From positions 1 to 45,506 of the forward strand of contig JAPKDE010000002.1 in the NCBI GenBank assembly GCA_028822675.1: a stretch of 45,506 nucleotides of DNA, given 5' to 3'. Shown one piece after another: positions 3,110 to 45,096 of the stretch (position 1 is the first letter of the stretch; each line of letters opens with the position of its first letter). The position numbers and the translations under genes are program-made. Source of the DNA: Dehalococcoidia bacterium (GTDB lineage Bacteria; Chloroflexota; Dehalococcoidia; UBA3495). A model generated the notes under the pieces. The model made no database searches. It saw only the letters and a program-made list of their open reading frames with translations, and was not told the DNA's origin.

Positions 3110-3154
3110 GATTTGGTTTGGTTGCTCCCTAAATTCACTTAATTTAGATTGACG

Positions 3155-3385: not shown

Positions 3386-3399
3386 CAGACCTTAGATTT

Positions 3400-3597: not shown

Positions 3598-3632
3598 CGT
3601 AATCTCCAGTTCTGAACCACAGACTAGCCAGA

Positions 3633-4823: not shown

Positions 4824-4876
4824 TCCGGGTCTCCTCCACCATTTCGATCTTGGTCAGTGCGAGTTTTGATTTTTGA

Positions 4877-7591: not shown

Positions 7592-7653
7592 AATCTATTC
7601 AAGCGCTAGCAGTGCCGGTTCAACCATCGGCGTTGGCCAATAAAATGGGATTC

Positions 7654-11499: not shown

Positions 11500-11964
11500 C
11501 TAACTGGCGGAGTGGTTGCCGTTGGTACGCTCCCGGAACCGCTCCGTGATGGCCTGCTCTGCTTGGCGGCTGTTGGCGGCGATAAAATCTTCCAATTGAC
11601 GAATCTCAGCCTGAATATCATCACTATGGGCAGCCCCGTTCTGCTTCAAGCTGGCAAGTTTGGAACGGGCCTCGTCCACTCGCTTCAACAACTGCAGGGC
11701 TTCCAGCTCTTGGGCGGCGGTATCTTTGATGACCAGTAGCCGGCGGCGGTTGGCGTCGTCGTCTTCCAGGCGCTCTTCTATCTCCCCCAGGGCCGACAAC
11801 GACAGGTCCAAAGACGCTTGGCCGTAGACAACCTGCCTGGGCAGGCGACGCAGTTGGGTCTGAAACTGACTAATCAACCCGTCTAGCTGGTCTTCTTTGT
11901 TTCGCATCTCGGCAAGGCCCAACCTTAGGGTGGCCCTTGACTGTTCAAGCTGAGAAATTGCCAT
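11500..11964 (-). CDS. coiled-coil protein of unknown function
   Basis: A 154-residue, highly charged, mostly helical protein without Cys pairs or membrane segments. Runs such as LGEIEERLEDDDANRRRL and LLKRVDEARSKLASL have the heptad pattern of coiled coils, so it may dimerise or act as a scaffold. I chose the ATG at 11962-11964 (MAISQLEQSRATL) because GGGAAG precedes it; an upstream in-frame start at 12012 would cross a terminator hairpin. It is convergent with the DUF1015 gene and downstream of the class V aminotransferase, from which a terminator separates it. No family was recognised. Confidence 0.65.
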   Translation of the reverse strand: MAISQLEQSRATLRLGLAEMRNKEDQLDGLISQFQTQLRRLPRQVVYGQASLDLSLSALGEIEERLEDDDANRRRLLVIKDTAAQELEALQLLKRVDEARSKLASLKQNGAAHSDDIQAEIRQLEDFIAANSRQAEQAITERFRERTNGNHSAS

Positions 11965-11989
11965 TTTGGCACTTCCCACAACTGGCCGG

Positions 11990-12037
11990 AAAAAATAACG
12001 CCGGAACAGCAATTACACTATTCCGGCGAACGTTTTT
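11990..12037 (-). terminator. hairpin terminator, probably bidirectional
   Basis: GCCGGAA (12000-12006) pairs with TTCCGGC (12021-12027). On the minus strand a T-rich run follows (bases 11998-11990), fitting a terminator for the class V aminotransferase gene. On the plus strand a five-T run follows at 12033-12037. Confidence 0.6.
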
Positions 12038-12136
12038 ATTTGAACCGATTATCCCACCGCAGCGGGTCTACTCCAACGGAATAAAAACCACTTCAGACGA
12101 TAATTTTAGTGCAATTCGGTGTGGAGTTGCCCCAGT

Positions 12137-14588: not shown

Positions 14589-14822
14589 ACGGCTTCAGCC
14601 GAGCCCTCATAGTCAGCCAGTCTCAGAAATTGAGGTTAACGATATAAGCCGTTACAAAGGATGGAAGGAATCACCAAACAACCCTTAATCCTGCTCAACA
14701 GGATATACCAGTTCGGTAGTTTTTCCGCTGCAAAAAGAAACCACTACGGCGAAGTTCCCCCGGTCGGCTCACAACGCGCCGCAGGCGGCATTCGTTTCTG
14801 CACTAAACAATGACTTTTATTT

Positions 14823-15458
14823 ATGGGCGCTGACATGGCTTTAGATATTGATTTTCGACACACGGCCGTTCTATCCATGGACTTTGAAAATGACATCGTC
14901 CATCCGGAAGGAGCGCTCAAGGAATTCGGGTTCGCCAAGATGGTGGCAGACAACAATGTTCTGGAAAAGACCGGTCAACTGTTGGTAGCGGCCCGCGGGT
15001 CTGGCGTACTGGTGATCCACGTTTCGGTCAAGTTCCGCGTTGGCTACCCGGAGCGCCCCGCCAACTCCATGCTCTGGGAGGGACTCCACGCCGCCGGTGC
15101 GCTACTGGAAGGCACCTAGGGCGCACAGATCCACGACCGGGTGGCCCCGCAGCGAAGTGAAGCCGTGGTGACCAAGCGCGGCATGTCTGCGTTCACCGCA
15201 TCAGACCTGGACCAAATCCTCCGCACCAACCGCATCGGCACCTTGCTGCTGGCTGGTGTGGCGACCAACTTTGTGGTTGAGAGCACCGCCAGACAGGCCT
15301 GTGATCTGGGCTACAACACAGTGGTCGTCGGCGACTGCTGCGCATCGGTGAACCAGGAGGCCCACGATGCCTCCCTGACCACCGCGCTACCCTTCATCTG
15401 CACCATCTCCAGTCTGGAAGAGGTTCTTTCGGGCTTGAGCGTACCTGCCGGGGTATAG
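14823..15458 (+). pseudogene. isochorismatase-like cysteine hydrolase with an in-frame TAG
   Basis: One continuous frame of 211 codons interrupted only by TAG at codon 99 (15117-15119). The text around it, LLEGT-stop-GAQIHDRVAP, matches the family motif GTWGAEIH, so the TAG replaces a tryptophan TGG by a single G-to-A change. The N-terminal Asp motif (AVLSMDFENDIV) and the lysine (VTKRGMSAF) of the hydrolase triad are present. At the nucleophile position the usual NVCVEST reads NFVVEST, so the catalytic cysteine is also missing. The start could be 14823 or the ATG at 14835. Probably a recently inactivated gene. No functional partner is seen nearby. Confidence 0.7.
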
Positions 15459-15540
15459 CGCCCAGCAATTAAATGGCTCCGCCGGGGCTACGGGTGGGGC
15501 CACGGGCGGGGCTACAGGCTCCGCTGGGGCAGCAGATACA

Positions 15541-30866: not shown

Positions 30867-31586
30867 CTACCCCAACTCAATCCGCTTAAACCCTTCTGCA
30901 AAGGCCATGCCGACTTTCTTGCCGGTGGCTATGCGGCCCTGTCGGAACCAGTCTCCCGCATGCTCTTGATCCACCTGCGAAACATGGGCCTTGAGCGCTT
31001 TTACAGCCGTGTCCATATGGGCTTCTACGTTCACAAATTGGTCTGAGTTTTTGCCGCCACCGGATATCCAGACCTCCCGAACTTTATGCGGTTCCAGACC
31101 CTCTTCCAAAAATTCGGGGAAGGTCAATCGGTCTCGCGCCGTAGGAAATACCGCCGATAGTGCAGCCTCACCCGCAGCGAAATGATCCGGATGCCCCAGG
31201 TAATGGCCTGACTCGATATTCCTGGCCGGGCTATTCGTAATCACCACGTCAGGCTTGTGGCGGCGAATCTCACGCGTGATGTCCTTGCGCAAGGCCAACG
31301 TGGGTTCAAGGTAAGCATCGGGGTAGCCTAGAAAAACTATGTCTTTAAGCCCCAGGATTTTGCCCGCGTCCCGCTGTTCTTTTTCCCTAATCTTGATTAA
31401 CTTTTCACCGGTCATATCAGGGTCTGGGCTGCCTTTGCTGCCGTCGGTGCACAGAACGTAGACCACATCCCAGCCCTCGGCACACCATTTAGCCACTGTG
31501 CCTGAGCAACCCCACTCGGCATCGTCCGGGTGGGCCATAATCACCATTCCTCTACTGAATGGTTTTTGATTTTCCGCGTCGGCCAT
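30867..31586 (-). CDS. PIG-L/LmbE family deacetylase
   Basis: A 239-residue zinc-dependent N-acetylglucosaminyl-type deacetylase. The motif MAHPDDAEWGC (about 17-27) supplies the His and two Asp of the metal site. The later HYLGHPDHFAAGEA provides the third zinc ligand. CTDGSKGSPDPDM matches the family's TxGxxG loop. I chose the ATG at 31584-31586, after GGAGG; the frame is open about 110 codons further upstream, but that part lacks family similarity. The substrate could be an N-acetylated sugar or another amide; nothing in the context decides it. Confidence 0.88.
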   Translation of the reverse strand: MADAENQKPFSRGMVIMAHPDDAEWGCSGTVAKWCAEGWDVVYVLCTDGSKGSPDPDMTGEKLIKIREKEQRDAGKILGLKDIVFLGYPDAYLEPTLALRKDITREIRRHKPDVVITNSPARNIESGHYLGHPDHFAAGEAALSAVFPTARDRLTFPEFLEEGLEPHKVREVWISGGGKNSDQFVNVEAHMDTAVKALKAHVSQVDQEHAGDWFRQGRIATGKKVGMAFAEGFKRIELG

Positions 31587-31786
31587 TGAAATAATCCTCC
31601 AGACTGTAGGGGCCGATAAATAACGGCACAAAAATGCCGATACAACGTCCAAATTGGCCTCATTTAGGCACAATTTGAAGTGTATCATAGCGTCTTTGCC
31701 ATCGCCTACGGTAGCCACATATCCGTTGCCGTCTGGCCACGGGGATGCTAGTCTGAGGCTCAAATACCAACACCGGGGAGCGCTGC

Positions 31787-33102: not shown

Positions 33103-34005
33103 TCAAATACCGACCGCTGCGGACTTAAGGTCCGTAATGAACTCCCAGGTAGCCTCGGACAGATTATTATTCTCCCTGACGGCCACTCCAATTTGTACCG
33201 GAGGGAATATATGACTTAGGTCTAGGACGCCGAACTTGGAGTTGGCGTCCTGATTAGACGCAAATTGATAGGTGATCGTTATAGCCACACCCATTCCGAT
33301 CTCAACGTACCGCCGGACCAACTCACTGTTCTCCATTTCAAGGCTCACCTGCGGCTGTAGTCCTCTTTCACTCATGGCATTTTCGAAATATCTGCGGGTG
33401 TAACTCTCTAGGCTCAATAGAATTAGAGGCCATTTAGCGATGGTTTCTAGGCTAATAGTCGGGTTATCTAATATCGGATGCCCGATGGGTGCCATCAGAT
33501 GGAATGGCGCATCGAAAAGGTGGACAAACGAGATACCCCTAATTTCTTCGTCAGGGGCATGAACAACCACCATATCGACCTCACCGGCTTCAAGTGCGTT
33601 CATCAAAACTTGGTATGGTCTGGCTACCACTTTCACTTGAGCGTCCGGATATCGCATTCGATAATCTTGTAGCGCTGACGGGAGATAGTGGAGCGCAAGA
33701 TCTGGATATGAGCCAATACTGAAAGACCCCAACTGGCCTGACCCGCTCATCTGATCGTTCAACGCTGTAAGCCCACTTTCCACCGATGACACCAGAGGGC
33801 GGGCTAGTTCAAACAGCTTTTGGCCCTGTTGAGTGAGTTTTATTGGCCGCCGGTTCCTATCAAACAGATTTGCGCCAATATCGCGTTCCAATTTTTGAAG
33901 ATGCGCGGTCACCGTCGGCTGGCCCAGATCCAGTAACCGGGCCGCTTGAGATACGCTGCTCAAACGAGCGGTATGATAAAAACTTATCAGTTCACGAATA
34001 TCCAA
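33103..34005 (-). CDS. LysR family transcriptional regulator, CysB-like position
   Basis: A 300-residue LysR-type regulator. The N-terminal winged helix-turn-helix reads SVSQAARLLDLGQPTVTAHL, then KLERDIGANLFDR. It is followed by a two-lobe effector domain (about 90-295). It is divergent from the thiol dioxygenase gene and next to rhodanese and sulfite-oxidase-like genes. I therefore infer that it controls the sulfur island and senses a sulfur metabolite, as CysB-type LysR proteins do. A perfect inverted repeat in the intergenic region (34097-34136) is a plausible binding site. The effector is unknown. Confidence 0.9.
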   Translation of the reverse strand: MDIRELISFYHTARLSSVSQAARLLDLGQPTVTAHLQKLERDIGANLFDRNRRPIKLTQQGQKLFELARPLVSSVESGLTALNDQMSGSGQLGSFSIGSYPDLALHYLPSALQDYRMRYPDAQVKVVARPYQVLMNALEAGEVDMVVVHAPDEEIRGISFVHLFDAPFHLMAPIGHPILDNPTISLETIAKWPLILLSLESYTRRYFENAMSERGLQPQVSLEMENSELVRRYVEIGMGVAITITYQFASNQDANSKFGVLDLSHIFPPVQIGVAVRENNNLSEATWEFITDLKSAAVGI

Positions 34006-34096: not shown

Positions 34097-34136
34097 TTTA
34101 ATGCATAGTATCATTTTATGGATACTATGCATTAAA
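34097..34136. promoter_or_regulatory. perfect 16-bp inverted repeat, candidate LysR operator
   Basis: TTTAATGCATAGTATC (34097-34112) is exactly complementary to GATACTATGCATTAAA (34121-34136) with an 8-base spacer. It lies between the LysR and dioxygenase start codons, immediately upstream of the candidate dioxygenase -35 box, the classical position of a LysR activation site. A hairpin role is less likely because no gene ends there. Confidence 0.65.
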
Positions 34137-34145
34137 TGTGCGTGG

Positions 34146-34175
34146 TTGACGGTAGCTTAACCCTACAATCATAAT
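34146..34175 (+). promoter_or_regulatory. candidate promoter of the sulfur island
   Basis: TTGACG (34146-34151) and CATAAT (34170-34175) are separated by 18 bases. The promoter lies 10 bases downstream of the inverted repeat and about 87 bases before the dioxygenase ATG. Confidence 0.5.
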
Positions 34176-34261: not shown

Positions 34262-34846
34262 ATGACCATAGTCAAGTATTCCCTGGAAGATTTCACCCAC
34301 GACATGGAAGATCTGCTGAAGAGTCAGCCTGGCAACCAGCAGATATTTGACAAGGGTTCGACTTGGCTGGAACGACTGATCAGCAACCCTGACTCCATCC
34401 CCATGGAATTCAGGACCCCCCTGGGCTCAGGCCCCCGCCCCAACCACGCATCCCGCATGCTCTACCAGGGAGAGAGTGGCTTACAGGTCACCGCAGTTGT
34501 CTGGGGATCCGGTGACCACCTTGGCCCCCACGACCACCGCACATGGGGCATGATTGGCATCCTGGAAAACGCCCTCACGGAAACCAGGTACCGCCGCATC
34601 GATGACCATGACGTAGACGGTTTTGCCAAGCTTGAAAAAGACCGGGCCGCCACCGTCCAACCAGGCGAAATCACCCTGCTAGTCCCCGACGAAGACGAGA
34701 TTCACCAGATGGACAACCACACCGACAAATCAACCGTGGAGATCCACGTTTACGGCAACGACCTACGAAGCATCGACCGGAACGCCTTCAATCTAGAGAC
34801 CGGCAAGATCACCACTTTCCGCACGAGCAGATGGGACAACTGTTAA
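34262..34846 (+). CDS. thiol dioxygenase, cysteine/3-mercaptopropionate dioxygenase family
   Basis: A 194-residue cupin that uses Fe(II) and O2 to oxidise a thiol to a sulfinate (or a persulfide to sulfite). The iron ligands fit H90 and H92 (GPHDHRTWGMIGIL) and H148 (DEDEIHQM). The following IHVYGNDL supplies the family Tyr at about Y164. PHDHxTWGMIG and the HVYG motif are typical of the mercaptopropionate-type branch. GGGGGAAGG lies upstream of the ATG. It is the first plus-strand gene of the sulfur island and is divergent from the LysR gene. Its natural thiol cannot be named from sequence. Confidence 0.85.
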   Translation: MTIVKYSLEDFTHDMEDLLKSQPGNQQIFDKGSTWLERLISNPDSIPMEFRTPLGSGPRPNHASRMLYQGESGLQVTAVVWGSGDHLGPHDHRTWGMIGILENALTETRYRRIDDHDVDGFAKLEKDRAATVQPGEITLLVPDEDEIHQMDNHTDKSTVEIHVYGNDLRSIDRNAFNLETGKITTFRTSRWDNC

Positions 34847-34989
34847 TAGATATTTAATACGGAAATCCCCGGCGTAAATCCCTGGCGGAGGTCTTTGGGC
34901 GGAAGGCTTTGTGAGACGTGAGCCGAGCTGAATTGTTGGTGTCTCGTCTAGATTGGTTTAGTAACCATATAACCGAGGAGAAAACTTAG

Positions 34990-36567
34990 TTGGCCCAAAA
35001 GATTGCCTCAAACGACCTCAAATACCTAATGGAAGGAAAATCTCCCTTCGCGCTGATTGATGTCCGCGAGTCGGGCGAGTACAACGCCACCCACATCCCC
35101 GGTGCCGCACTGATTCCCAGACGGCGCATCGAATTCATCATTGAAAGTTCCGTGCCTCACAAGGGCACCCAAATAGTGATCTGCGACGACGATGGCCGCC
35201 GCGGCGCGCTTGCCGCAGCAACACTGGACAACCTGGGCTACACTAACGTCCATTATCTGGAGGGCGGCACCAACCGCTGGGCCAGCAATGATCTCCCCAC
35301 CGAATGGGGCGTAAACGTCCCCACCAAGGACTTTGGCGAGATGCTGGAAGTGGTCCACCACGTGCCTGAAATTACCGCTGATGACCTACACCAGCGCATT
35401 GAAAACGGCGAAAAGCTGGTCATTTTAGACACCCGCACCCCTGAGGAATACAACAACTTCTGCATCCCCGGCGGGCGCTCCATGCCCGGCGGTGAGCTGG
35501 CCCTCAGGATCACCGATATCAAGAACCAAATCGATGATGACACAACCGTGGTCATCAACTGCGCCGGGCGCACCCGCAGCATCATGGGCACCCGCGTGCT
35601 GCAGCGCATGGGCATCAACGCCGTTGGCCTGAAGAATGGAACCTCCGGCTGGCTGTTGGCCGGCTACGAACTTGAATACGGCGGAGACCGCCTGACTTTG
35701 CCCGAAGTCTCCGATGAGAGCCAAGCCGCGGCTGAAGAATACGCCGCCCGGTTGGCCAGCGAAGACGGCGTTGGCTACCTGGACATTCCCGCTCTGCAAG
35801 AAATGCTGGCCAAGCAAGAGAAAGAATCGGTCTACCTGATTGATGTCCGCACTGAAGACGAATACAAAGCTGGTCACATTCCCGGCTTCCGCTGGTTCCC
35901 CGGTGGACAGGCCGTACAGCGCTCTGACGATGTGGCCGTGGTCAAGAACGCCATCTACATCTTCTGTTGTGACGGCAAGGCGAGGGCCACCATCACAGCC
36001 TCGCTCTATCGCCAGCTTGGGCATGAGAATGTCTTTGCCGTAGACGGCGGCTCCATTGCCTGGGAGAGTGCCGGACAAACCATGGAATCGGGGTTCCCAA
36101 TCAGTACGTTGGCCGGCATAGACGCGGCTAACGCGACCGTAAAAAAAGTCTCACCCCAAGAACTGAGCGACAACCAGCCAGACTTGGTTCTGTTTGTTGA
36201 TACAAGTGAAGACTTCTCCAAGGGGCACACTCCGGGCGCAAAATGGATCACTCGCAGTTGGCTTGAGGTTGAAGTCATTGAAGCAGCCCCATCCAAAGAC
36301 ATGTCTATCACCGTAAGTTGCAGAGACGGACGTGGCGCAACTCTGGCCGGTGCCACGCTGCAGAGCATGGGATATACCAATGTCACCGCGCTGGACGGCG
36401 GCATGGCTGCCTGGAGAAAGGCTGGACTGCCGGTGGAAGAGGGCCTGACCGGAATCATCCGCCCGCCCTCAGACATCAACTACCTGGGCGTTTCCCGCAG
36501 CTACGGAGAAATGATGAATTACCTGCGGTGGGAAACCGCCCTGGGCGAAAAATACGCCGCTGATTAA
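34990..36567 (+). CDS. four-domain rhodanese (sulfurtransferase)
   Basis: A 525-residue protein built of four rhodanese domains in series (about 1-105, 125-230, 262-365 and 385-480). Each keeps a cysteine at its active-site loop: C65 (VICDDDGRRGAL), C191 (NCAGRTRS), C326 or C327 (FCCDGKARA) and C444 (SCRDGRGA). Rhodaneses carry sulfane sulfur as cysteine persulfide. A tail (RPPSDINYLGVSRSYGEMM) follows. The start is TTG, with GAGGAG about 9 bases before. It sits between the thiol dioxygenase and the molybdoenzymes, so it may relay sulfur between them. Two-domain forms are common; four catalytic-looking domains are unusual. Confidence 0.9.
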   Translation: MAQKIASNDLKYLMEGKSPFALIDVRESGEYNATHIPGAALIPRRRIEFIIESSVPHKGTQIVICDDDGRRGALAAATLDNLGYTNVHYLEGGTNRWASNDLPTEWGVNVPTKDFGEMLEVVHHVPEITADDLHQRIENGEKLVILDTRTPEEYNNFCIPGGRSMPGGELALRITDIKNQIDDDTTVVINCAGRTRSIMGTRVLQRMGINAVGLKNGTSGWLLAGYELEYGGDRLTLPEVSDESQAAAEEYAARLASEDGVGYLDIPALQEMLAKQEKESVYLIDVRTEDEYKAGHIPGFRWFPGGQAVQRSDDVAVVKNAIYIFCCDGKARATITASLYRQLGHENVFAVDGGSIAWESAGQTMESGFPISTLAGIDAANATVKKVSPQELSDNQPDLVLFVDTSEDFSKGHTPGAKWITRSWLEVEVIEAAPSKDMSITVSCRDGRGATLAGATLQSMGYTNVTALDGGMAAWRKAGLPVEEGLTGIIRPPSDINYLGVSRSYGEMMNYLRWETALGEKYAAD

Positions 36568-36640
36568 TCACGGCAATTCATAACGGAGCACACGGCAACA
36601 AGACCCTAAGTCACCCAACTAAAACCTGAGGAGAGATTCT

Positions 36641-37837
36641 ATGTCGACGACACGACAAGATGGTGTGGTTCCTGACTTTCTAAGAATGGACGAGGCGATC
36701 GGCTCAGACCCGGCCAATGCCGACAAGACCGGCAACTGGCACGGCTGGCCCACTAAAGATTTGAACCCGGTCACTCTCATGGATGACGAGGGCCGCACGG
36801 TGCGTATCCGCACCCCCGTGATGGACCTAGAAGGACTCATCACACCCACAGACCTTCATTACACAGTGCAGCACTTTGCCGTTCCCCCCGTGGTCGAGAC
36901 GGACAAGTGGGAGCTAAAAGTTCACGGCGAGGTCAAAAACGAACTCACCCTGAACTTTGACCAACTGCGCCGTTTCCCCGGTCGCACAGTACGCACGGTT
37001 ATGGAGTGCTCCGGCAGCGACGCCACCTTCTTTGAGTATTTCAAGGGCGAAGGCCCCAAGCCCTCCCGCACCCAAGAGTGCATGATTCTCAGCGCCAGCG
37101 AATGGACCGGTGTGCCTTTGGCCGCCGTCTTGAATGCCGCGGGGTTGTCTGACAAATCCCTTTACGTTCGCGCGGTAGGCAATGATGACGGCGTTCCAGC
37201 TTCCGCCGCCGAGGGCACCAAACCCTTCTATTACGACAAGGGCCTGCCCATACACAAAGCGCTTCATCCTGACACACTCTTGGCCTACGCGCAGAACGGG
37301 CAACTCCTAGAGCACCTCCACGGCGCGCCGGTCCGACTCTTGGTGCCTGGCTGGTCCGGCAACTGGTCGGTAAAATGGATCACCGATCTTGAGATCACAG
37401 AAAAGATGCCCGAGTGCTGGTACCACTACGAGTTCTACTACTACGGCAACGGTGTAGATGACCCCAACAAAGAACTCATCACTACCCTGGGCGTCAAGTC
37501 CATCATCACCCAGCCAAACGACGATGTGGAAAAGATGACCAAAGGCGTCCAGATGATTCGGGGCTATGCCTGGAGCGGCGCTGGCGCGATATCAGAGGTC
37601 GATGTGAGCACCGATGGTGGCGAGACGTGGAATTCCGCGCATATAGAGGCCCCTCGCCACGACCAGTTCATGTGGGTCCGGTGGTCATACCAGTGGAATG
37701 CAGACAAGTCGGGCGACTACACCTTGATGGCCCGCGCCGCCGATGACGTGGGCCGAGTACAGTCTCGCGTGCCTCGCTACAACAACATGCGCAAGAATTT
37801 CAGCGCCATAGTCGGATATCCAATCACAGTTGAATAG
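36641..37837 (+). CDS. sulfite-oxidase-fold molybdenum oxidoreductase (first copy)
   Basis: A 398-residue protein with the sulfite oxidase architecture: a molybdopterin domain (about 75-270) and a Mo-co dimerisation domain (about 280-398). The molybdenum cysteine is C123 in MECSGSDATFF. HGAPVRLLVPGW and GNWSVKWI follow, and the C-terminal EVDVSTDGGETWNSA is characteristic. There is no Tat or Sec signal, so it should be cytoplasmic and may need a soluble electron acceptor. GAGGAG lies 8-10 bases before the ATG. It probably oxidises sulfite formed by upstream steps; this is inferred from context. The tail of the gene has two extra copies downstream (37814-37926). Confidence 0.9.
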   Translation: MSTTRQDGVVPDFLRMDEAIGSDPANADKTGNWHGWPTKDLNPVTLMDDEGRTVRIRTPVMDLEGLITPTDLHYTVQHFAVPPVVETDKWELKVHGEVKNELTLNFDQLRRFPGRTVRTVMECSGSDATFFEYFKGEGPKPSRTQECMILSASEWTGVPLAAVLNAAGLSDKSLYVRAVGNDDGVPASAAEGTKPFYYDKGLPIHKALHPDTLLAYAQNGQLLEHLHGAPVRLLVPGWSGNWSVKWITDLEITEKMPECWYHYEFYYYGNGVDDPNKELITTLGVKSIITQPNDDVEKMTKGVQMIRGYAWSGAGAISEVDVSTDGGETWNSAHIEAPRHDQFMWVRWSYQWNADKSGDYTLMARAADDVGRVQSRVPRYNNMRKNFSAIVGYPITVE

Positions 37838-37926
37838 CAAGATCGCATTTAAGACAAAAGGTTACCCTGTCACTGTCGAGTAGCACGAACACTTAAAATA
37901 ACGGGTATCCTGTCACGGTTGAATAG
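37814..37926 (+). repeat. triplicated 3' end of the first molybdoenzyme gene
   Basis: Three segments, 37814-37837 (the gene's own end), 37860-37883 and 37903-37926, each read G-Y-P-(I/V)-T-V-E-stop in the forward direction. The steps are 46 and 43 bases, and the spacers are also related (CATTTAAGA, CACTTAAAA). Between copies nearly all differences are in third codon positions (GGA/GGT/GGG, ACA/ACT/ACG, GTT/GTC/GTT), with one Ile-Val change. The pattern fits tails of genuine gene copies kept under protein-level selection before the bodies were lost. Confidence 0.7.
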
Positions 37927-37959
37927 CAATACACGTGATAGAAAATCCAGGAGTAGAAC

Positions 37960-38310
37960 ATGCCAATAATTGACCACGCAGATGTGCGTCTCGCACCTAC
38001 TACCGAGCGGTTGCGAGAGCGCTATCTGGTATCTAAAGACCAAGGTGCGGTATCATTGACCGTGAAAGAAGTGGAGATTTCTCCCGGCTGGGAAGGGCGC
38101 TTGCACACCCACTCGGTGGATGTCTCGATTCAAATATTATCCGGCGCCATTCAGGTGATTCTTGGCGACGACGTTAAAACGGTGCGCGCCGGCACTACTC
38201 TCCTGGTTCCACCAGGACTGCCGCACAAGCTCATACATCATCTCTGGACTCCGGCATTGGTGTTAATCACCTACCCATCGTCCGAGTTGGAGACCGAGCA
38301 CTTGGAATAG
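37960..38310 (+). CDS. small cupin protein in the sulfur island
   Basis: A 116-residue cupin. Motif 1 gives H49 and H51 (GRLHTHSVDVSIQIL) with aspartate at the place of the usual glutamate, and motif 2 is RAGTTLLVPPGLPHKL with H89. The metal site is therefore largely complete. AGGAG lies 8 bases before the ATG. It sits between the two molybdoenzyme genes in the same direction. Likely roles are a further oxygenase or a ligand-binding accessory; it is too short and generic to name. It is not closely similar to the thiol dioxygenase upstream. Confidence 0.75.
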   Translation: MPIIDHADVRLAPTTERLRERYLVSKDQGAVSLTVKEVEISPGWEGRLHTHSVDVSIQILSGAIQVILGDDVKTVRAGTTLLVPPGLPHKLIHHLWTPALVLITYPSSELETEHLE

Positions 38311-38402
38311 AGATTCCAGAGTCTAAGAAATCCAAGGCCTCGGCCTAATCAAGCTAAAAAATACGGTTTAAAAACACCGCAACATTTTGAGGAGGAGCCC
38401 AT

Positions 38403-39512
38403 ATGGCCCTGCCACAGATTGGCACCAAAGCAGAACCGCAGATCATTCCCACAAACGCTGGCCTTCGCACGTGGGCCGTGCCGCCGCAGGGTCTGCAGGA
38501 GAACATCGTCCCCAATGACCTGTTCTACATTCGTAACCACTGGAAGGACTCCCCGAAAATAGACATCAATACCTTCCAATTGAAGATAGATGGCGAGGTT
38601 GAACGGACTATTTCTTTGTCTTTTGAAGACCTCAAAAAGTTGCCCCAAAAGCGCTTCCAGGTAACCTTTGAGTGTTGCGGCAACAGCCCAGTGCCTGAGT
38701 ATTACACCAAGGCCTTGCGCATCAGTTCCGTCATGGAGCAGATTAAGGGTCATGGCATCATGGGCAACGCTGAGTGGGCCGGTGTCTCACTGAAAGACGT
38801 GTTGGAACTGGCCGGAGTAAAGAGCTCGGCCGTTGAAGTGATGTTTGAAGGTGCCGACCACGGCGCCGACGAAGTAGTGGGCGACCCATCTGAGGTCACC
38901 TACGAGCGCAGCCTACCCATGGAAAAGGCCTTGCACGAAGACACGATTCTAGCCTATGAAATGAACGGCGAGCCGCTACCCATCGACCACGGTTATCCGC
39001 TGCGTCTCTTAGTTTCAGGCTGGTATGGCATGAACTCCGTCAAATGGCTGGTAGGCATACACCTACTGGACCACAAGTTTGAAGGGTTCTACATGACCCA
39101 GCGCTACATGACCATGAACGAGCCGGGCAACCCTGAGCCTTACCGCTACTACGGCAAGTTGCAGGTCAAGTCCATCATCACCAACCCCGTACCCGGGGAG
39201 ATCATCCCTGCCAGTGGCTACACTCTGGCTGGCGCAGCCTGGTCAGGTGAAGAGGATGTCGAGAAAGTAGAGATCAGCACCGACGGCGGTGAGACCTGGG
39301 GCCCGGTGGACACCCTTCACCCGCGCACCGCGTACTCCTGGTACCGCTGGGAGCACAACTGGACACCGCCCGCCGCAGGCAAGTACACCATCATGTCTCG
39401 GGCGACCAACGTTGATGGCGTCACCCAGCCCATGGAGTTCCCGAACCCTTGGGATGGACGCGGCTACGGAAACAACATGGTGTTCCCGTATGATGTAGAA
39501 GTACGCGGGTAG
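38403..39512 (+). CDS. sulfite-oxidase-fold molybdenum oxidoreductase (second copy)
   Basis: A 369-residue paralogue with the same two domains. The molybdenum cysteine fits C91 in FECCGNSPVPEYY, a doubled cysteine (C91-C92) inside the usual ECxGN motif. GYPLRLLVSGWYGMNSVKWL matches the pterin-binding part, and EVEKVEISTDGGETWGPV-like sequence marks the dimer domain. There is no signal peptide. GAGGAGG lies 8 bases before the ATG. It lacks the longer N-terminal extension of the first copy. Two unlike copies in one unit suggest two substrates or two subunits of one complex; the sequence does not decide. Confidence 0.9.
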   Translation: MALPQIGTKAEPQIIPTNAGLRTWAVPPQGLQENIVPNDLFYIRNHWKDSPKIDINTFQLKIDGEVERTISLSFEDLKKLPQKRFQVTFECCGNSPVPEYYTKALRISSVMEQIKGHGIMGNAEWAGVSLKDVLELAGVKSSAVEVMFEGADHGADEVVGDPSEVTYERSLPMEKALHEDTILAYEMNGEPLPIDHGYPLRLLVSGWYGMNSVKWLVGIHLLDHKFEGFYMTQRYMTMNEPGNPEPYRYYGKLQVKSIITNPVPGEIIPASGYTLAGAAWSGEEDVEKVEISTDGGETWGPVDTLHPRTAYSWYRWEHNWTPPAAGKYTIMSRATNVDGVTQPMEFPNPWDGRGYGNNMVFPYDVEVRG

Positions 39513-39557
39513 AGGTTCGAGCCTAGACCCGAAAAGGTCTAATATAGAGTCAATAGT

Positions 39558-39839
39558 TTGATTGTAGCGAAACGAGTTCCCGTCCCGCTGGTATTCTCAC
39601 TGGTACTAGCGCTAGTCCTGGCCCTAATAATTTTCTTTGGGGCCTGGGCGGTGTCGGCTGATGTGGGGACCCAGCGGACCTTGGCCTTTGGCATACCAGG
39701 CACTACGGCAACGCTGAGCGGAACCACGGTGGACGGGACGGATAATGGTGCCTATCAAACCGACCAGATAGGCGGCCACGAACTGGCTGGCGACACCTGG
39801 TGGGGCAACGCTTTCCTATCGGCCTGCCCGCTGCATTAA
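39558..39839 (+). CDS. small secreted or membrane-anchored protein, possibly degraded
   Basis: A 93-residue frame starting at TTG. An uncleaved-looking or signal-type hydrophobic segment (VFSLVLALVLALIIFFGAW) follows KR, then a Ser/Thr/Gly-rich part and the end FLSACPLH. A sulfite dehydrogenase partner at this position would be a cytochrome c, but only a single C-x2-H-like end (CPLH) is present, not CxxCH. It may be a truncated cytochrome-like partner or an unrelated envelope protein. There is no clear ribosome binding site. The call is weak. Confidence 0.35.
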   Translation: MIVAKRVPVPLVFSLVLALVLALIIFFGAWAVSADVGTQRTLAFGIPGTTATLSGTTVDGTDNGAYQTDQIGGHELAGDTWWGNAFLSACPLH

Positions 39840-39895
39840 CCTGCTGCACTGAATAGAAATAGGCAAAAATATACAATATACAACGAGGACCCAGA

Positions 39896-39929
39896 GAAAC
39901 CGGGCCGTTTAACCAATAGGCCCGGTTTC
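39896..39929 (+). terminator. GC-rich hairpin before the MFS gene
   Basis: GAAACCGGGCC (39896-39906) pairs with GGCCCGGTTTC (39919-39929), 11 bp. The sequence after it (CCTTGA) is not a T-run, so it may be a Rho-independent-like hairpin of low efficiency or an RNA-stability element at the end of the sulfur unit. Confidence 0.45.
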
Positions 39930-39949
39930 CCTTGAGATATACCAAAATC

Positions 39950-41335
39950 ATGGTGGTCACCAATACTGCAGCACCCACTCCCGTCCGCGCTCGTAGAGGA
40001 ATCCACCGAGCCTGGTTCATACTAGCCATCCTAGCGGTAGCCCAGGTCACAGCGCAGTCCATCAGCATGTCCGCTGGAATCATGGTTGCTCCGCTGAACG
40101 ATCCGGACGGCCCATTTGGCTGGAACATTGGAATAATCGCCGCTGGGTTGGCCACCTACTACGTCTGCGGCGCCACAGTGGCTCCCATCACCGGCATGCT
40201 TGGTGACCGGTACGGCGCTCGTCCTTTGATGTTTGCCTGCGGGTTGCTGTACATGACCAGTATGATTCTGGTTGGCACCATCACCCACCTCTGGCAGTTC
40301 TTCTTGTACTTTGGCGTAATGTTGTCCGTCACTCAGTCTCTGGCAATGGTGCCTTTGTTAGCTTCCGTCAGCGGTTGGTTCAAGATTAAACTCGGTTTGG
40401 CCACTGGAATCCTCTGGGCCGCGGGCGGCGTTGGAGCAGCAGCGATCGCTCCCTCCGTGGCCAACCTTCTGGACGCCTTTGGTTGGCAGACCACATTTAC
40501 CATCATCGGCATAGCGGGCGGCGGAACGTTGACTGTGCTCACGTTCTTCTTCCGGTCAAAGCCGTCCGACGCAAATACCATCGCTTTTGGAGCGTCAGTC
40601 AATGACGTCCCCGAGGTTATCCGAAGCAAAGAAATCACACGCCTACGGTTGAAGGTCTTCAACAAGGCCATGCGCAAGACCAGGGCGTTTTGGAACCTGC
40701 CAACCATTCACGGGTTGGGGTGCGCGGGTCACGGCATCATTCTGATCTACTCGATACCGCTCGCCATTGAGCAGGGCATTAGTCTTTCGACCGCGTCATT
40801 CATCCTGGCCATCATTTCCGTCTTCAGCATCTTTGGCCGGTTCGTGTCCCCAATATTGGCCGAGCGATTTGGCGGGAAGCCAATCATAACCACCGCGCTA
40901 TTGATACAGGGCACCACAGTCTTGGTGCTGTTCTGGGCCCACGAAGCCTGGACCTTCTACCTATTCGGCGCACTGTTTGGACTGGGATTTGGCGGTGAGA
41001 TGACGGCCTATCTGGTGGTCAACCGACAGTACTTCGGCACTGGCCCTCTGGCCACGCTCTATGGGTTTGAGACCATGGGCGCGCTCTCCGGCCATGCAAC
41101 CGCAACTGTACTGGGCGGGCTGGCCATCTACGCCACCGGGTCGTTCTACCCGGCGCTGGTCATGTCCATGATCTTCAGCCTATCTGGCGTGTTTGTGGTA
41201 CTCAGCATGGAGTCCAACAAGAAAATCTTGATTCCTGACTGGGAAGACGGTCTGCCACCCTATGCCAGGACCACGCCTCAAGTTGCTGAAGAATCAGTCC
41301 GTGCCGCACTATTAGAGCAGGTAGAAATCGACTAG
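39950..41335 (+). CDS. major facilitator superfamily transporter
   Basis: A 461-residue membrane transporter with about twelve hydrophobic segments, the first (HRAWFILAILAVAQVTAQ) starting about residue 18. The cytoplasmic loop-2 motif is GMLGDRYGARPL, and a mirrored RFVSPILAERFGGKP follows the seventh helix, as in monocarboxylate/oxalate-formate-type MFS members. I chose the ATG at 39950; a TTG at 39932 is in frame but would add charged residues and no ribosome binding site is seen for either. Placed after the molybdoenzymes, it could import an organosulfur substrate or export sulfite/sulfate or a product; the direction is not readable. Confidence 0.85.
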   Translation: MVVTNTAAPTPVRARRGIHRAWFILAILAVAQVTAQSISMSAGIMVAPLNDPDGPFGWNIGIIAAGLATYYVCGATVAPITGMLGDRYGARPLMFACGLLYMTSMILVGTITHLWQFFLYFGVMLSVTQSLAMVPLLASVSGWFKIKLGLATGILWAAGGVGAAAIAPSVANLLDAFGWQTTFTIIGIAGGGTLTVLTFFFRSKPSDANTIAFGASVNDVPEVIRSKEITRLRLKVFNKAMRKTRAFWNLPTIHGLGCAGHGIILIYSIPLAIEQGISLSTASFILAIISVFSIFGRFVSPILAERFGGKPIITTALLIQGTTVLVLFWAHEAWTFYLFGALFGLGFGGEMTAYLVVNRQYFGTGPLATLYGFETMGALSGHATATVLGGLAIYATGSFYPALVMSMIFSLSGVFVVLSMESNKKILIPDWEDGLPPYARTTPQVAEESVRAALLEQVEID

Positions 41336-41365
41336 CAAATTCCAATCTGAACTCTGGTGATTAGC

Positions 41366-42040
41366 ATGGCCGACCTCATTGATTTGACCTTGACTCTGGG
41401 CAGCGACCGCATCAGCCTGGTGCCGGGGTTGGTTGGGGTGGAGACGGAGTCGATTCAGACCCACGAAACCCATGCTCGTTCTAATCAAAAGCTTTGCCTG
41501 GCCACACACATCGGCACCCACGTAGACGCCCCGTTCCATTTTGTGGACGGTGCCACCACAGTTGAAAACATGCCCCTGGAGAAATACGCCGGACCGGCCA
41601 TATTGTTGGACCTACGTGCGGCGTCCAAGGGTCAAGAGCCGCTGACCATCGCTGAGGTCACCGAAGCTGGTGCTAACCCGGAATCGGTCAAAGACCAGAT
41701 CGTTGTGCTGTTCACTGGCTGGGCGGAGGCTGAGTCGGGCGGCCCTCGGTTCTATGGACACGGCCCCTACCTTGGGACCGACACCGCCGGCTACCTGGCT
41801 GACTGCGGAGCCAACGCAGTAGCCGTGGACTTTCCCATCGACAAACACCCGGACACACCTCTGTCCACCATCAAAGACTTCCCGGTGCACCGGCTGCTAC
41901 TGGGTCAGAACATCCCACTCATCGAGAACCTGATTAACTTGGACAAGTTGCTGGGCAAGAAGTTTGAACTGTGGGCCTTGCCCCTCAAACTCAAAGGCGG
42001 AGACGGCGCTGCCACCAGGGCCGTTGCCCGTATCCTCTAG
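41366..42040 (+). CDS. cyclase-family metal-dependent hydrolase
   Basis: A 224-residue protein of the cyclase family (kynurenine formamidase-like). The defining motif HIGTHVDAPFHF (H48, H52, D54, H58) binds the metal, and the C-terminal end LWALPLKLKGGDGAATRAVAR is also conserved. The reaction in this family is hydrolysis of an amide or lactone, such as N-formylkynurenine. The start is ATG at 41366 with GGTGATT before it; GTG at 41357 is possible. It lies 30 bases after the MFS gene and is probably cotranscribed with it. The substrate is unknown. Confidence 0.85.
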   Translation: MADLIDLTLTLGSDRISLVPGLVGVETESIQTHETHARSNQKLCLATHIGTHVDAPFHFVDGATTVENMPLEKYAGPAILLDLRAASKGQEPLTIAEVTEAGANPESVKDQIVVLFTGWAEAESGGPRFYGHGPYLGTDTAGYLADCGANAVAVDFPIDKHPDTPLSTIKDFPVHRLLLGQNIPLIENLINLDKLLGKKFELWALPLKLKGGDGAATRAVARIL

Positions 42041-42063
42041 CCTTACATTTAAATGACCACTAG

Positions 42064-42702
42064 ATGACCACGCCCAATGTCAGGCCGATCTTGCTGGCCA
42101 CCGGCAACAGTGACAAACAGCAGGTGTTCCGAACTCTTCTTGGTGGTTTGCCATTTAGCCCGGTCACACCGGCAGAACTTGGCGTCTCGGCATCAACCCA
42201 AGAAAACGGCGACACCCATCAGGACATTGCCATTGAAAAAGCAATTGCCTGGTCAGAGGCAGGCTCCATGCTGGCCATCGCCTCTGATGGTGGACTGCTC
42301 ATCCCCAGTTTGGGTCCGTCATGGCAGAGCCGCCACACCCGCAGGTTCGCTGGTTCTGATATCACTGACTCCCAACGCGTTGATGCCCTGCTGGAACTGA
42401 TGCAGCCTTTCACAGGAGTCGACAGAAACGCCTCTTGGGCAGAAGCGGTCGCAATTGCCTACAAAGGGCGCCTATTGGCCTCCTGGGAACTCCAGGGAGC
42501 CACTGGTGAGATAGCTCAGGCAAAACCACCAGGCTCCATTCCGGAGTTTTGGGCCTTCACCATCTGGAATTTTCCCCAACTGGGCAAGACTTACAACGAA
42601 TTAACCGCCGAAGAGCTGCTGTCCCTCAACGACCATTGGAGCCAATTTGGCCGTTTGGTACGTAGAATCTTCGAGTCGATATTTGTTCCACCAATGGATT
42701 AG
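42064..42702 (+). CDS. Ham1-like nucleoside triphosphate pyrophosphatase
   Basis: A 212-residue protein resembling RdgB/HAM1, which removes damaged purine nucleotides (ITP, XTP) from the pool by cleaving the pyrophosphate. The N-terminal LLATGNSDKQQVF matches the phosphate-binding ATxNxxK motif. AIASDGGLLIP occupies the place of the conserved DDSGL, but with SDGGL, and GSIPEFWAF differs from the usual GYGYDP. The catalytic motif is thus diverged, so the activity may differ from standard HAM1. It starts 23 bases after the cyclase gene and is on the same strand as the MoxR/CoxE-like pair. Confidence 0.7.
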   Translation: MTTPNVRPILLATGNSDKQQVFRTLLGGLPFSPVTPAELGVSASTQENGDTHQDIAIEKAIAWSEAGSMLAIASDGGLLIPSLGPSWQSRHTRRFAGSDITDSQRVDALLELMQPFTGVDRNASWAEAVAIAYKGRLLASWELQGATGEIAQAKPPGSIPEFWAFTIWNFPQLGKTYNELTAEELLSLNDHWSQFGRLVRRIFESIFVPPMD

Positions 42703-42761
42703 CCCAATGCCTTTGGGATACAATTTGCGTGCCTGGCCCAAAACGCCATCAACGGGAGACA

Positions 42762-43751
42762 GTGACCCTTTTGACGACCACCGATAAATCATCAAATAAG
42801 CCCTCGGATAAACCGACTGGCGAGTACCAAGCTCCCGAGTCCATTGAAGATGTTCAAAAGCTGCTACGGGACCAGGTCTACATATCTGACCGCTCCTTGG
42901 CAGTTCCTATATTCTTGGCCCTAAAATTGCAGCGGCCCCTGTTTTTAGAGGGCGAAGCTGGCGTTGGCAAGACCGAGATCGCCCGCGCCCTGGCTGCCGG
43001 GCTGAACACCAAGCTAATCAGACTCCAATGCTACGAAGGCTTGGACATCAACCAGTCTGTCTACGAGTGGAACCACGCCCGCCAGATACTGGAGGTTCGC
43101 CTGATGGAAGCGTCTGGCGACGTTGACCGGGATTCGGCTAACGCAGACCTCTACAGCGAGCGGTTCCTGATTAAACGCCCGCTGCTCCAGGCCATTGACG
43201 AGGCCGAAGAGCGACCGCCGGTGCTCCTGATTGACGAGCTTGATCGCTCTGATGAAGAGTTTGAAGGGTTCCTGCTAGAACTGCTGGCCGACTACCAGAT
43301 CACCATCCCGGAGTTGGGCACTTTCAAGGCTGCCCATCCGCCTATCGTGATCATCACATCCAACCGCACCCGAGAAATTCACGACGCCCTGAAGCGCCGC
43401 TGTCTCTACGCCTGGGTTGACTACCCCGATTACCAGAAAGAACTGCAAATCATCTCTGCCAGACTTCCGGACGCACCCAAGAGGCTGGCCGAACAGGTCA
43501 CCGCTTTCATCCAGGAGATGCGTGAGACCGAGCTATTCAAGATTCCGGGCATCACCGAAACCCTGGACTGGCTGTCGGCGCTCTTAGCCTTGAACCAAAC
43601 TGAACTAGACCCGGCAGTGATCGACGACACCCTGGGCATGATGCTCAAGTACCAGGACGACATCGAATCGGTCAAGGGCGAACCCGTCCGCGCCATGCTG
43701 GAACGCTCCAAGAACCACGGCCCCCGTCGTGGCGGCCGTGGCCGCGGTTAA
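42762..43751 (+). CDS. MoxR-family AAA ATPase
   Basis: An approximately 329-residue AAA+ ATPase of the MoxR class, chaperone-like enzymes that mature metalloenzymes or assemble complexes together with a VWA-domain partner. Walker A is GEAGVGKT (64-71) and Walker B is PPVLLIDELDRSDEEF. ITSNRTREIHDALKRRC contains sensor 1 and the arginine finger. The C-terminus ends in a basic RRGGRGRG tail. I chose the GTG at 42762-42764 behind GGGAG; an upstream GTG at 42729 would add 11 residues. The CoxE-like gene follows after 10 bases, so they form a pair. Confidence 0.88.
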   Translation: MTLLTTTDKSSNKPSDKPTGEYQAPESIEDVQKLLRDQVYISDRSLAVPIFLALKLQRPLFLEGEAGVGKTEIARALAAGLNTKLIRLQCYEGLDINQSVYEWNHARQILEVRLMEASGDVDRDSANADLYSERFLIKRPLLQAIDEAEERPPVLLIDELDRSDEEFEGFLLELLADYQITIPELGTFKAAHPPIVIITSNRTREIHDALKRRCLYAWVDYPDYQKELQIISARLPDAPKRLAEQVTAFIQEMRETELFKIPGITETLDWLSALLALNQTELDPAVIDDTLGMMLKYQDDIESVKGEPVRAMLERSKNHGPRRGGRGRG

Positions 43752-43761
43752 GGGGTTTTAG

Positions 43762-45096
43762 ATGGCGGATAGAATTCCGGGTCCAATCCCAATCCTCCCC
43801 AATGATGCCGGTGAAGATGGCCACATACTGCATAGCCTCACGCTCTTTGGCGAGATGCTGCGTAGGGTGGGGCTGGAGATCGGCTCCGGAAACATGCTGG
43901 ACTTGGTCCGCTCCACAGAGCACGTATCCATTGGTCGGCGCGGTGAGTTCTTCCAGGCAGCCCGCAGCATCCTGGTGCACCGCAAGCAGGACTTACCCAT
44001 TTTTGACGAGGCTTTCCAGGTGTTCTGGCGCAAGCCTTCTGATCGCACCACCACCATGGATCTACGCTCGTTGGGAGAACAGAAACGCTTCAAGAAACCT
44101 CAGATTTCGACCGGTCGCGATGACGAAGCAGAGGGCGATAATTTTTTGGAAGGGAATCCCGATGACGATTCGGTCCAGAATGTGGATTTGAGCCGCACCT
44201 ACAGTGCGGTTGAGGTATTCCGACAGAAGGATTTCTCTGAATTCACTGCTATGGAGATGACCGAAGCCCGCCACATGATGGGCAACCTGACCTGGGATTT
44301 GGGACACCGCCGCACCCGGCGATTGGCCCCCGGGCGGTCTGGCCCCTTGGATCTCAGACGGACCATGCGGCAGAGCTTGAAATACAACGGCGAGTTCTTG
44401 GACCTGGCCCACCGGACACCCAAGGAAAAACCGCGCTCTCTGGTGCTGATCTGCGATGTAAGCGGCTCCATGGAACGCTACACCCGTATGCTCTTGCAGT
44501 TCATACACACCATCTCCGGTGATTTCGACCAGCTTGAAGCGTTCTTGTTCGCCACACGACTTACGCGTATCACCAGGAGCCTGAAGTACCGCAGCATTGA
44601 CCAGTCCATTGATGAAGTTTCCAAGGCGGTGCCCGACTGGGCTGGTGGAACCCGTATCGGCGACGCAGTTAAAACCTTCAATTACCAATGGCTGCGGCGG
44701 GTGATAAGGGGCCAGGCAGTGGTGCTGATAATCTCCGACGGCTGGGACCGGGGCGACCCGGAATTACTGGCCAAAGAAACGTCCCGCTTACAACGCAGTT
44801 GCCACCGACTAATCTGGCTGAACCCACTCCTGGGTTCGCCCACCTACCAGCCCCTAACCCAGGGCATGAAGGCTGCACTGCCGTTCGTGGACGACTTCCT
44901 ACCAGTCAATAACCTAAACAGCCTGGATTCGCTCTCGCAGCACTTGAGTAGTTTGGGGCCGGACCGGCAATTGGGTCAGCCCTACCGAGCGCCTGCTCCT
45001 GAAGAAACTGAGCTGGAACCGGTGGCTGAAGACCGGCCCATTGACCGGCTGAACCTGCCGTCGTTCCAACACCCATTGTGGGGCAAACGACGCTAG
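43762..45096 (+). CDS. VWA-domain protein, CoxE-like
   Basis: A 444-residue cytoplasmic protein that partners MoxR ATPases. The N-terminal helical part (about 1-220) is followed by a von Willebrand factor A domain. The metal-ion-dependent adhesion site is intact: D232, S234 and S236 in CDVSGSM, then GGTRIGDAV for the threonine and ISDGWDRGD for the distal aspartate. CoxE-type proteins help insert the metal centre of CO dehydrogenase, but no cox structural genes are in the window, so the client is unknown. The start ATG lies 10 bases after the MoxR stop, without a strong ribosome binding site, which suggests coupling. Confidence 0.88.
   Translation: MADRIPGPIPILPNDAGEDGHILHSLTLFGEMLRRVGLEIGSGNMLDLVRSTEHVSIGRRGEFFQAARSILVHRKQDLPIFDEAFQVFWRKPSDRTTTMDLRSLGEQKRFKKPQISTGRDDEAEGDNFLEGNPDDDSVQNVDLSRTYSAVEVFRQKDFSEFTAMEMTEARHMMGNLTWDLGHRRTRRLAPGRSGPLDLRRTMRQSLKYNGEFLDLAHRTPKEKPRSLVLICDVSGSMERYTRMLLQFIHTISGDFDQLEAFLFATRLTRITRSLKYRSIDQSIDEVSKAVPDWAGGTRIGDAVKTFNYQWLRRVIRGQAVVLIISDGWDRGDPELLAKETSRLQRSCHRLIWLNPLLGSPTYQPLTQGMKAALPFVDDFLPVNNLNSLDSLSQHLSSLGPDRQLGQPYRAPAPEETELEPVAEDRPIDRLNLPSFQHPLWGKRR

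Follow-up and report, generated by a model that had tools for sequence, protein, structure and literature searches.

How organic thiols are taken to sulfate in SAR202-type Chloroflexota is a question for which the enzymes have mostly been guessed. These uncultured, mostly marine bacteria are numerous in dark ocean waters, and the available text of PMC5864207 assigns them a part in sulfur turnover. A 45,506-nucleotide stretch of a Dehalococcoidia genome (contig JAPKDE010000002.1, assembly GCA_028822675.1; hereafter the window) raises the question in compact form. About eleven conserved genes lie on one strand at 34262–45096, with a LysR gene divergent from them, and among them are a thiol dioxygenase, a four-domain rhodanese, two molybdoenzymes of the sulfite oxidase (SUOX) fold, here called Moco1 and Moco2, and a small cupin. 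Do these enzymes form a pathway, and is every step of it needed? The reading that we favour, with about even confidence, is a cytoplasmic sulfur-oxidation cluster, a funnel to sulfite and sulfate, with a fixed molybdoenzyme core and optional entrances. As a compact candidate for the thiol-to-sulfate steps the cluster is testable gene by gene, and it comes with natural variants in which one gene or another is missing, with a molybdoenzyme subfamily whose active site is altered and with a dioxygenase subfamily whose motif is altered.

The cluster begins with the thiol dioxygenase gene (34262–34846, +; CDO_I, cysteine dioxygenase superfamily), followed by the rhodanese gene (34990–36567, +; TTG start, four stretches of PF00581), Moco1 (36641–37837, +; SoxC/SorA-related, PF00174 and PF03404, i.e. 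Oxidored_molyb and Mo-co_dimer), the cupin (37960–38310, +; PF07883) and Moco2 (38403–39512, +; SorA-like, Oxidored_molyb and Mo-co_dimer). A Pfam scan of the frames found all the genes named in the initial annotation of this DNA to be intact, running in one direction at the positions given there and with LysR opposite. That annotation had ended the module with the transporter gene (34262–41335), but the conserved block runs on through cyclase, Ham1-like, MoxR and VWA_CoxE genes to 45096, and a small gene at 39558–39839 had been overlooked.

A search for the same gene order in other Chloroflexota genomes, suggested at the outset, found it again. Loci were collected by rhodanese alignment and pattern search, which gave 93 confirmed places, and the best 80 of the 93 were used. 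Since this set was chosen by rhodanese, co-occurrence counts within it are skewed toward that gene, and the ortholog thresholds in the comparison were our own. The nearest contig found (L001, from a Dehalococcoidia metagenome genome) encodes proteins 84–98% identical to those of the window; other contigs found are labelled SAR202 cluster or Chloroflexi. Downstream genes were counted on the strand of the rhodanese in the 56 loci whose downstream flank extends 9,950 nt or more, giving Moco1 in 20, the cupin and Moco2 in 13 each, the transporter in 20, the cyclase in 12, the Ham1-like gene in 23, MoxR in 21 and VWA_CoxE in 12. The rhodanese stood without other downstream cluster genes in 31 of the 56, 12 of these with a dioxygenase and 19 without. 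Of the 71 loci in which 1,500 nt or more of upstream sequence is available, 43 have a dioxygenase gene no more than 2 kb ahead of the rhodanese. All cluster genes are under purifying selection, with ratios of nonsynonymous to synonymous substitution rates (dN/dS) of 0.02–0.25 where dS was measurable (six loci), and the Moco genes are among the most constrained (0.035–0.080; six comparisons). The recurrence of the order in other genomes, together with purifying selection, indicates that the cluster of the window did not come about by chance.

A less biased sample consisted of 50 genomes of the family of G001, the nearest relative; all are kin of G001, and kinship was not corrected for. Moco1 was found in 33 of these genomes, Moco2 in 27, a dioxygenase in 33 and a rhodanese in 41. 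In 40 genomes a rhodanese is accompanied by one or both Moco genes, and nine have no gene of either kind; the remaining one (G309) has a rhodanese only, and there the contig breaks off 1,081 nt away. Every Moco-bearing genome (40/40) thus has a rhodanese somewhere. The genes are also closely linked: on the same contig and strand, at most 6 kb apart, were dioxygenase and rhodanese in 28 of 31 genomes, rhodanese and Moco1 in 27 of 33, rhodanese and Moco2 in 24 of 27 and Moco1 and Moco2 in 18 of 20. In the class of G001, Moco1 (E <= 1e-100) was present in 1 of 294 genomes, G001 itself.

Close relatives, whose Moco1 proteins are 86–97% identical, differ in which entrance genes they have. The L001 cluster has no dioxygenase, and its genome holds only a 22% identical, distant relative; in L065 the dioxygenase is a stub matching residues 3–32. 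In L097 the dioxygenase is followed by Moco1 with no rhodanese between them, L099 has a rhodanese remnant, and L094 has neither dioxygenase nor rhodanese. Moco1, the cupin and Moco2 are kept in all five. The genomes of L097, L099 and L094 (G338, G340 and G339) each have a second rhodanese elsewhere. In the family sample the dioxygenase was absent from 10 of the 40 Moco-bearing genomes, at least two of which (G303 and G330) are cut at a contig end. Because the molybdoenzyme block is kept where entrance genes have been lost, we regard it as the stable part of the cluster and thiol oxidation as one optional entrance.

What might the core do? Residue alignments, from which partial frames such as that of L026 for Moco1 were omitted, show that Moco1 keeps the molybdenum-ligand cysteine, Cys123, in 27 of 27 sequences and in 15 of 16 of a second homolog set (A2), the remaining one (P0218) having Arg. 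The equivalent of SorA His57 is also kept. Where SorA has Arg55, SorT has Arg78 and SoxC has its own Arg, Moco1 has valine (Val76) in 27 of 27 and 16 of 16 sequences, by alignment to 2xts, 2blf and 4pw3. Three aligned Protein Data Bank (PDB) chains, 2ca3 (Met at 55), 5k3x (Lys) and 5wa0 (Gln), deviate at this Arg from the other SorA/SorT chains, and we read them as engineered mutants. SorT Arg78 has an electron-transfer role according to the passages available from PMC4760952. With the first substrate Arg replaced by Val, Moco1 is probably not an ordinary sulfite oxidase, and a valine in that place makes it unlikely to bind sulfite or pass electrons like the known enzymes. Its best PDB match was 2xts (SoxC), and its NCBIfam scores, none of which reached the cut-off, were 230.1 of 420 bits for soxC, 163.3 of 600 for SorA and 155.1 of 570 for SorT.

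Moco2 has Arg44, His46, Cys91 and Tyr235 where SorA has Arg55, His57, Cys104 and Tyr236 (21/21 sequences; alignment to 2blf). Its NCBIfam scores, again all below cut-off, were 243.9 of 600 bits for SorA, 210.5 of 420 for soxC and 161.2 of 570 for SorT. The cupin, with His 49, 51 and 89 conserved in 21 of 21, is strictly linked to Moco2, the same 20 of the 80 loci carrying both. In neither molybdoenzyme did a simple scan find an RR within the first 35 residues or a hydrophobic stretch within the first 60. This agrees with the cytoplasmic location, without signal peptides, that had been assigned to both, and they are probably cytoplasmic. A Pfam scan of 38 window frames found no c-type cytochrome partner.

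The dioxygenase keeps its iron-binding His residues (H90, H92 and H148) in 48 of 48 sequences (the window and 47 loci), and likewise R173, at the position of Arg168 of 3-mercaptopropionate dioxygenase (3MDO), which binds the substrate carboxylate (PMC8050391, in the part available). In place of the Ser-His-Tyr motif of cysteine dioxygenase (CDO)-type enzymes, all 48 have Glu160-His162-Tyr164. The position that distinguishes Gln62 from Arg60 enzymes, placed by pairwise alignment to 3uss across a gapped region, holds Tyr in 26, Trp in 15, Arg in 7 and Gln in none of the 48; the Arg of the window and of its near relatives L002–L005, L027 and L080 may or may not correspond to CDO Arg60. As judged from these residues, the family as a whole is probably neither a Gln-type 3MDO nor an Arg-type CDO.

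In the rhodanese the candidate catalytic residues Cys65, Cys191, Cys327 and Cys444, one in each of the four domains, are kept in 79, 81, 81 and 77 of 81 sequences. The protein matches its nearest structure, 1yt8, end to end; in the alignment 1yt8 is without Cys at domains 1 and 3, in contrast to the window rhodanese. A second four-domain rhodanese, 60–62% identical, lies off-cluster on six contigs (G001:C32, G002:C62, G336:C55, G338:C293, G339:C12 and G340:C118).

From the observed gene content, order, linkage, residue conservation and purifying selection, and from loci that keep the core though single genes are missing, we infer the substrates, electron acceptor, import, maturation and regulation of the cluster as follows. 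The core would consist of Moco1 and of Moco2 with its constant companion, the cupin; the four-domain rhodanese, as the point of entry for sulfane sulfur, would feed it directly or indirectly. Moco2, with the cupin, is the likely enzyme for sulfite to sulfate, while Moco1 would act on something other than free sulfite, perhaps a sulfinate, perhaps a thioether or a sulfoxide, perhaps sulfur bound to a protein. Where present, the thiol dioxygenase would serve as an optional entrance, converting a carboxylated, 3-mercaptopropionate-like thiol to a sulfinate, and the transporter with its 93-residue partner may import that thiol or sulfinate. MoxR and VWA_CoxE, which resemble carbon monoxide dehydrogenase maturation proteins, would perhaps aid maturation of the molybdoenzymes, and LysR would switch the set of the window at a palindrome. 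Plant sulfite oxidase uses O2 as electron acceptor, and O2 is a possible acceptor here too.

Several points weigh against this reading. No gene for a cytochrome or other electron acceptor lies within the cluster. Moco2 has Pro96 at the position of SorA Arg109 in 21 of 21 sequences (SoxC 2xts is likewise without Arg there in the alignment). The association of rhodanese with Moco genes has a Fisher p of 4e-9, which ignores phylogeny, and the nine genomes that lack both kinds of gene are mostly small; that of dioxygenase with Moco genes is weaker (p 0.02). Six genomes hold further SUOX-fold genes elsewhere, with 2 to 7 matches each. Although the MoaA domain found in 46 of the 50 family genomes counts in favour of the reading, G001 and G003 bear Moco genes yet gave no MoaA match, perhaps through incompleteness. 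In the available text of PMC12947264, deletion of the rhodanese partner in Pseudomonas protegens had no significant effect on 3-mercaptopropionate, and the AprBA-Sat sulfite route of SAR202 described in the accessible part of PMC5864207 could make Moco2 redundant.

The gene order mirrors the supposed order of steps in a linear pathway, in which the dioxygenase yields a sulfinate, the rhodanese moves the sulfur and both molybdoenzymes oxidise sulfite, every step being needed. The closeness of dioxygenase and rhodanese (43/71 loci within 2 kb, 28/31 family genomes within 6 kb) fits it as well. An obligate chain of this kind, from thiol through sulfinate, rhodanese and sulfite to sulfate, had been the initial proposal, but in that form the losses described above do not support it: the dioxygenase is missing in L001, a stub in L065 and absent from 10 of 40 Moco genomes (G303 and G330 cut at contig ends), and the cluster rhodanese is absent in L094 and L097 and a remnant in L099, with Moco1-cupin-Moco2 kept. 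Moreover, both enzymes have the sulfite oxidase fold that had been claimed for them, but Moco1, with Val for the first substrate Arg, is without one residue of their active site. Sulfinates carry no sulfane sulfur, and nothing in the analysis shows a transfer of sulfur from the dioxygenase to the rhodanese domains. We consider the linear pathway quite improbable. We are similarly doubtful that Moco1 is a cytoplasmic sulfane dehydrogenase acting on a rhodanese-borne persulfide, as SoxCD does on SoxY, with Moco2 finishing the released sulfite. SoxC is its best family model (230 bits, below 420) and 2xts its best PDB match, its gene is directly 3' of the rhodanese, all 33 Moco1 family genomes have such a rhodanese (second copies elsewhere counted), and all four rhodanese domains have a Cys in nearly all sequences, where 1yt8 has none in the first and third. 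However, SoxC itself keeps the Arg lost in Moco1, no SoxD-like cytochrome and no SoxYZ were found among the window frames scanned, and L094 and L097 have Moco1 without a cluster rhodanese. A bolder proposal, to which we attach little probability, is that Moco1 represents a new functional class of the SUOX fold, cytoplasmic and oxidising carrier-held sulfur (a persulfidated four-domain rhodanese) or sulfinate, and that with Moco2 and the cupin it forms a soluble, cytochrome-free counterpart of Sox in SAR202-type Chloroflexota.

The cluster might also be an operon of convenience, in which a sulfite detoxifier has an unrelated molybdoenzyme and maturation genes as neighbours and the dioxygenase-rhodanese pair is independent. 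The 12 of 56 full-flank loci with dioxygenase and rhodanese alone and the 19 with rhodanese alone are what this would lead one to expect, as are clusters with Moco1 only (13) or Moco2 only (6), the hairpin before the transporter, and MoxR without Moco in 3 of 41 genomes. It accords poorly with the presence of a rhodanese in 40 of 40 Moco genomes and with a block order kept though single proteins diverge (the Ham1-like protein down to 46%), and we think it rather unlikely. A fixed molybdoenzyme core with optional entrances remains the reading that we prefer.

The sister arrangements bear on the chemistry of this core. Moco1 occurs without cupin-Moco2 in 13 of the 80 loci, some of them cut short, and cupin-Moco2 without Moco1 in 6. 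An acyl-CoA-dehydrogenase-fold protein replaces cupin-Moco2 in 12 of the 13 Moco1-only loci, L026 being cut by a contig end, and occurs also in L052. The one such protein that was scored, from L017, gave weak best matches to two sulfur enzymes, SfnB (48.5 of 430.9 cut-off bits) and methanesulfinate monooxygenase (30 bits). Eleven of these sister loci, and L067, have a gene for a luciferase-like monooxygenase in the neighbourhood of the cluster; in L017, where family and place were tested, it is divergent upstream. Although the scores are far below curated cut-offs, these neighbours point to sulfinate and sulfonate chemistry. L017 also has two Uma2-type frames among the rhodanese, Moco1 and the next gene, at 11742–12089 (recognised by eye) and 14810–15517 (PF05685). 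A succinyl-CoA-ligase-like gene lies upstream of a dioxygenase-less rhodanese in ten loci (L045, with PF13607, L050, L051, L055, L056, L058, L059, L061, L078 and L079).

More distant relatives of the rhodanese occur on proteobacterial plasmids. Of 46 matching records, identity was 33.7–36.7% among the matches listed (30 of the 46), and the four regions that were read all pair a cysteine dioxygenase gene with a 35–36% identical rhodanese and have organosulfur genes (TauD, SsuD/LLM, TauE or metC) as neighbours, a point in favour of the main reading. The two genes are adjacent in three of the four, the fourth having metC and another rhodanese between them.

Beyond Moco2 lies the gene for an unannotated 93-residue membrane protein (39558–39839, +; TTG start), with one N-terminal transmembrane helix (19-residue mean hydrophobicity 3.06), a variable linker and a near-invariant C-terminal TWWGxxxLxACPLH. 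Twenty-four of the 80 loci share this motif with the window, similarity adds a relative in L008, and 33 of the 50 family genomes gave a match. The protein had no NCBIfam match, and its Pfam matches were all below cut-off. A search gave 87 homologs without Pfam domains, from Chloroflexota/SAR202 or marine sources where named; those with names are hypothetical proteins, except two labelled TRAP transporter small subunit. Its dN/dS is 0.09–0.25. The small gene adjoins the transporter gene wherever both are visible (21 loci by similarity, L007 and L065 by motif; the L013 contig ends before the transporter), and its product is probably an accessory subunit of this transporter. No published description of such a transporter-linked protein was found.

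The transporter itself (39932–41335, +; PF07690, the true start perhaps ATG 39950) is of the major facilitator superfamily (MFS) and falls in the L-lactate/oxalate-formate (monocarboxylate) branch, with SfMCT as best NCBIfam match (125.8 of 320 cut-off bits). In L001 (14799–15427) it is matched in two short pieces only, 75–79% identical, either a truncated gene or an assembly fault. It is followed by genes for a cyclase-family hydrolase (41357–42040, +; PF04199), a Ham1-like nucleotide pyrophosphatase (42064–42702, +; PF01725), a MoxR-type AAA ATPase (42729–43751, +; MadB-like, 267.7 of 475 cut-off bits) and a VWA_CoxE protein (43762–45096, +; PF05762, 208 bits). Of the 38 family genomes with both MoxR and a Moco gene, 34 have the two on the same strand and within 13 kb of each other.

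On the other side of the cluster the LysR-type regulator (33103–34005, −; PF00126 and PF03466), which reached no NCBIfam cut-off among the matches listed (25 of 54 families), does stand opposite, as had been described, but it is not a general part of the cluster: a recognisable ortholog, 73–94% identical, occurs only in L001, L004 and L065 of the 80 loci, 67 of which have 2,500 nt or more of upstream sequence. In the window, the gap between the LysR and dioxygenase genes holds a perfect inverted repeat with 16-bp arms and an 8-nt loop (34097–34136), the probable LysR operator. Its core TATCATT...GATACT is kept upstream of the promoter in the same three loci, with one base changed in L001 (by eye). 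Three further perfect repeats whose arms reach 12 bp or more lie in the window, at 15541, 26436 and 30101, one of them as long as the LysR-side palindrome, so the palindrome alone is no proof of an operator. In L001, L004 and L065, TTGAC and CATAAT recur at the position of the probable promoter of the window, TTGACG-18-CATAAT (34146–34175, +). Six loci without LysR that were read have TTGACA...GATAAT or CATAAT in the promoter place (by eye), and L094 has a promoter of the same type directly before Moco1. Promoter-like sites in the region are at chance level (7 found, 7.6 expected).

A hairpin with perfect 11-bp arms (39896–39929, +) separates the small gene from the transporter gene. Over 40 nt its energy is −22.3 kcal/mol, and hairpins at a like place in L001, L002, L003, L006, L013, L022 and L027 have −18.4 to −26.6 kcal/mol, all as raw folding energies; in the L017 group it is not clear. 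The hairpin is possibly a terminator or attenuator and could split the cluster into two transcripts.

Further out, a PIG-L deacetylase gene (30867–31616, −) lies in the window; such a gene is on the same strand and upstream of the cluster in 10 of the 80 loci, and directly 5' of the rhodanese in the Rokubacteria loci L018, L020, L068 and L070. A tie of these neighbours to low-molecular-weight thiols is possible. At 1919–9987 (−) an arginine-biosynthesis-like row comprises argininosuccinate synthase, a class-III aminotransferase, an amino acid kinase and ArgJ, with a 904-residue UPF0182 protein within it.

How does the cluster compare with known systems? As initially thought, the combination of dioxygenase, rhodanese and molybdoenzymes appears to be without a known description: none was found in the titles, abstracts and some passages of the open-access literature. 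For SAR202, a rhodanese and sulfite oxidation (AprBA-Sat; sulfite oxidase in single-cell genomes) have been proposed (PMC5864207, PMC5395668, PMC9416657, PMC6946804), with no such cluster described in the available portions of these papers. In the text available, PMC5864207 has 0 occurrences of 'dioxygenase', 'molybdopterin', 'mercapto' and 'molybd', although the metagenome-assembled genome Io17-Chloro-G4 listed there carries the cluster (L008), and PMC6946804 has 0 of 'rhodanese', 'sulfite', 'molybdo' and 'mercapto'. For mercaptosuccinate degradation in Variovorax paradoxus B4, a thiol dioxygenase, a rhodanese and a molybdopterin oxidoreductase have been proposed together for sulfite handling, and Advenella mimigardefordensis has a LysR-Msdo-beta-lyase-rhodanese gene row (both PMC5373536). 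These systems differ from ours in that the accessible passages describe no gene row that combines a cupin with a pair of SUOX-fold enzymes, and the Advenella row has a beta-lyase.

The molybdoenzymes resemble SorA, SorT and SoxC in homologous sequence and in the molybdenum-ligand Cys, and Moco2 also in the Arg, His and Tyr of SorA; unlike them, they have no signal peptide and no cytochrome gene in the cluster, and Moco1 has Val at the Arg position. The closest parallel for the entrance genes is in Pseudomonas, where the dioxygenase of the 3mdo-tst pair is of the Gln type and structure 1yt8 is PA2603. In P. protegens CHA0, 3mdo-tst (c14110-c14100; homologs of PA2602-PA2603) encodes a thiol dioxygenase and a thiosulfate sulfurtransferase, apparently in one transcription unit (PMC12947264, available passages), and in P. 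aeruginosa the LysR gene PA2601 is beside PA2602 (PMC8151288, from a table). As in that system, the window has a dioxygenase gene and then a four-domain rhodanese gene on the same strand, with LysR nearby; unlike in the window, no molybdoenzymes, cupin or MFS transporter are named for 3mdo-tst in the text available. The molybdoenzyme block, for which no description was found, is thus an addition to what is already a known pair, the thiol dioxygenase and the four-domain rhodanese.

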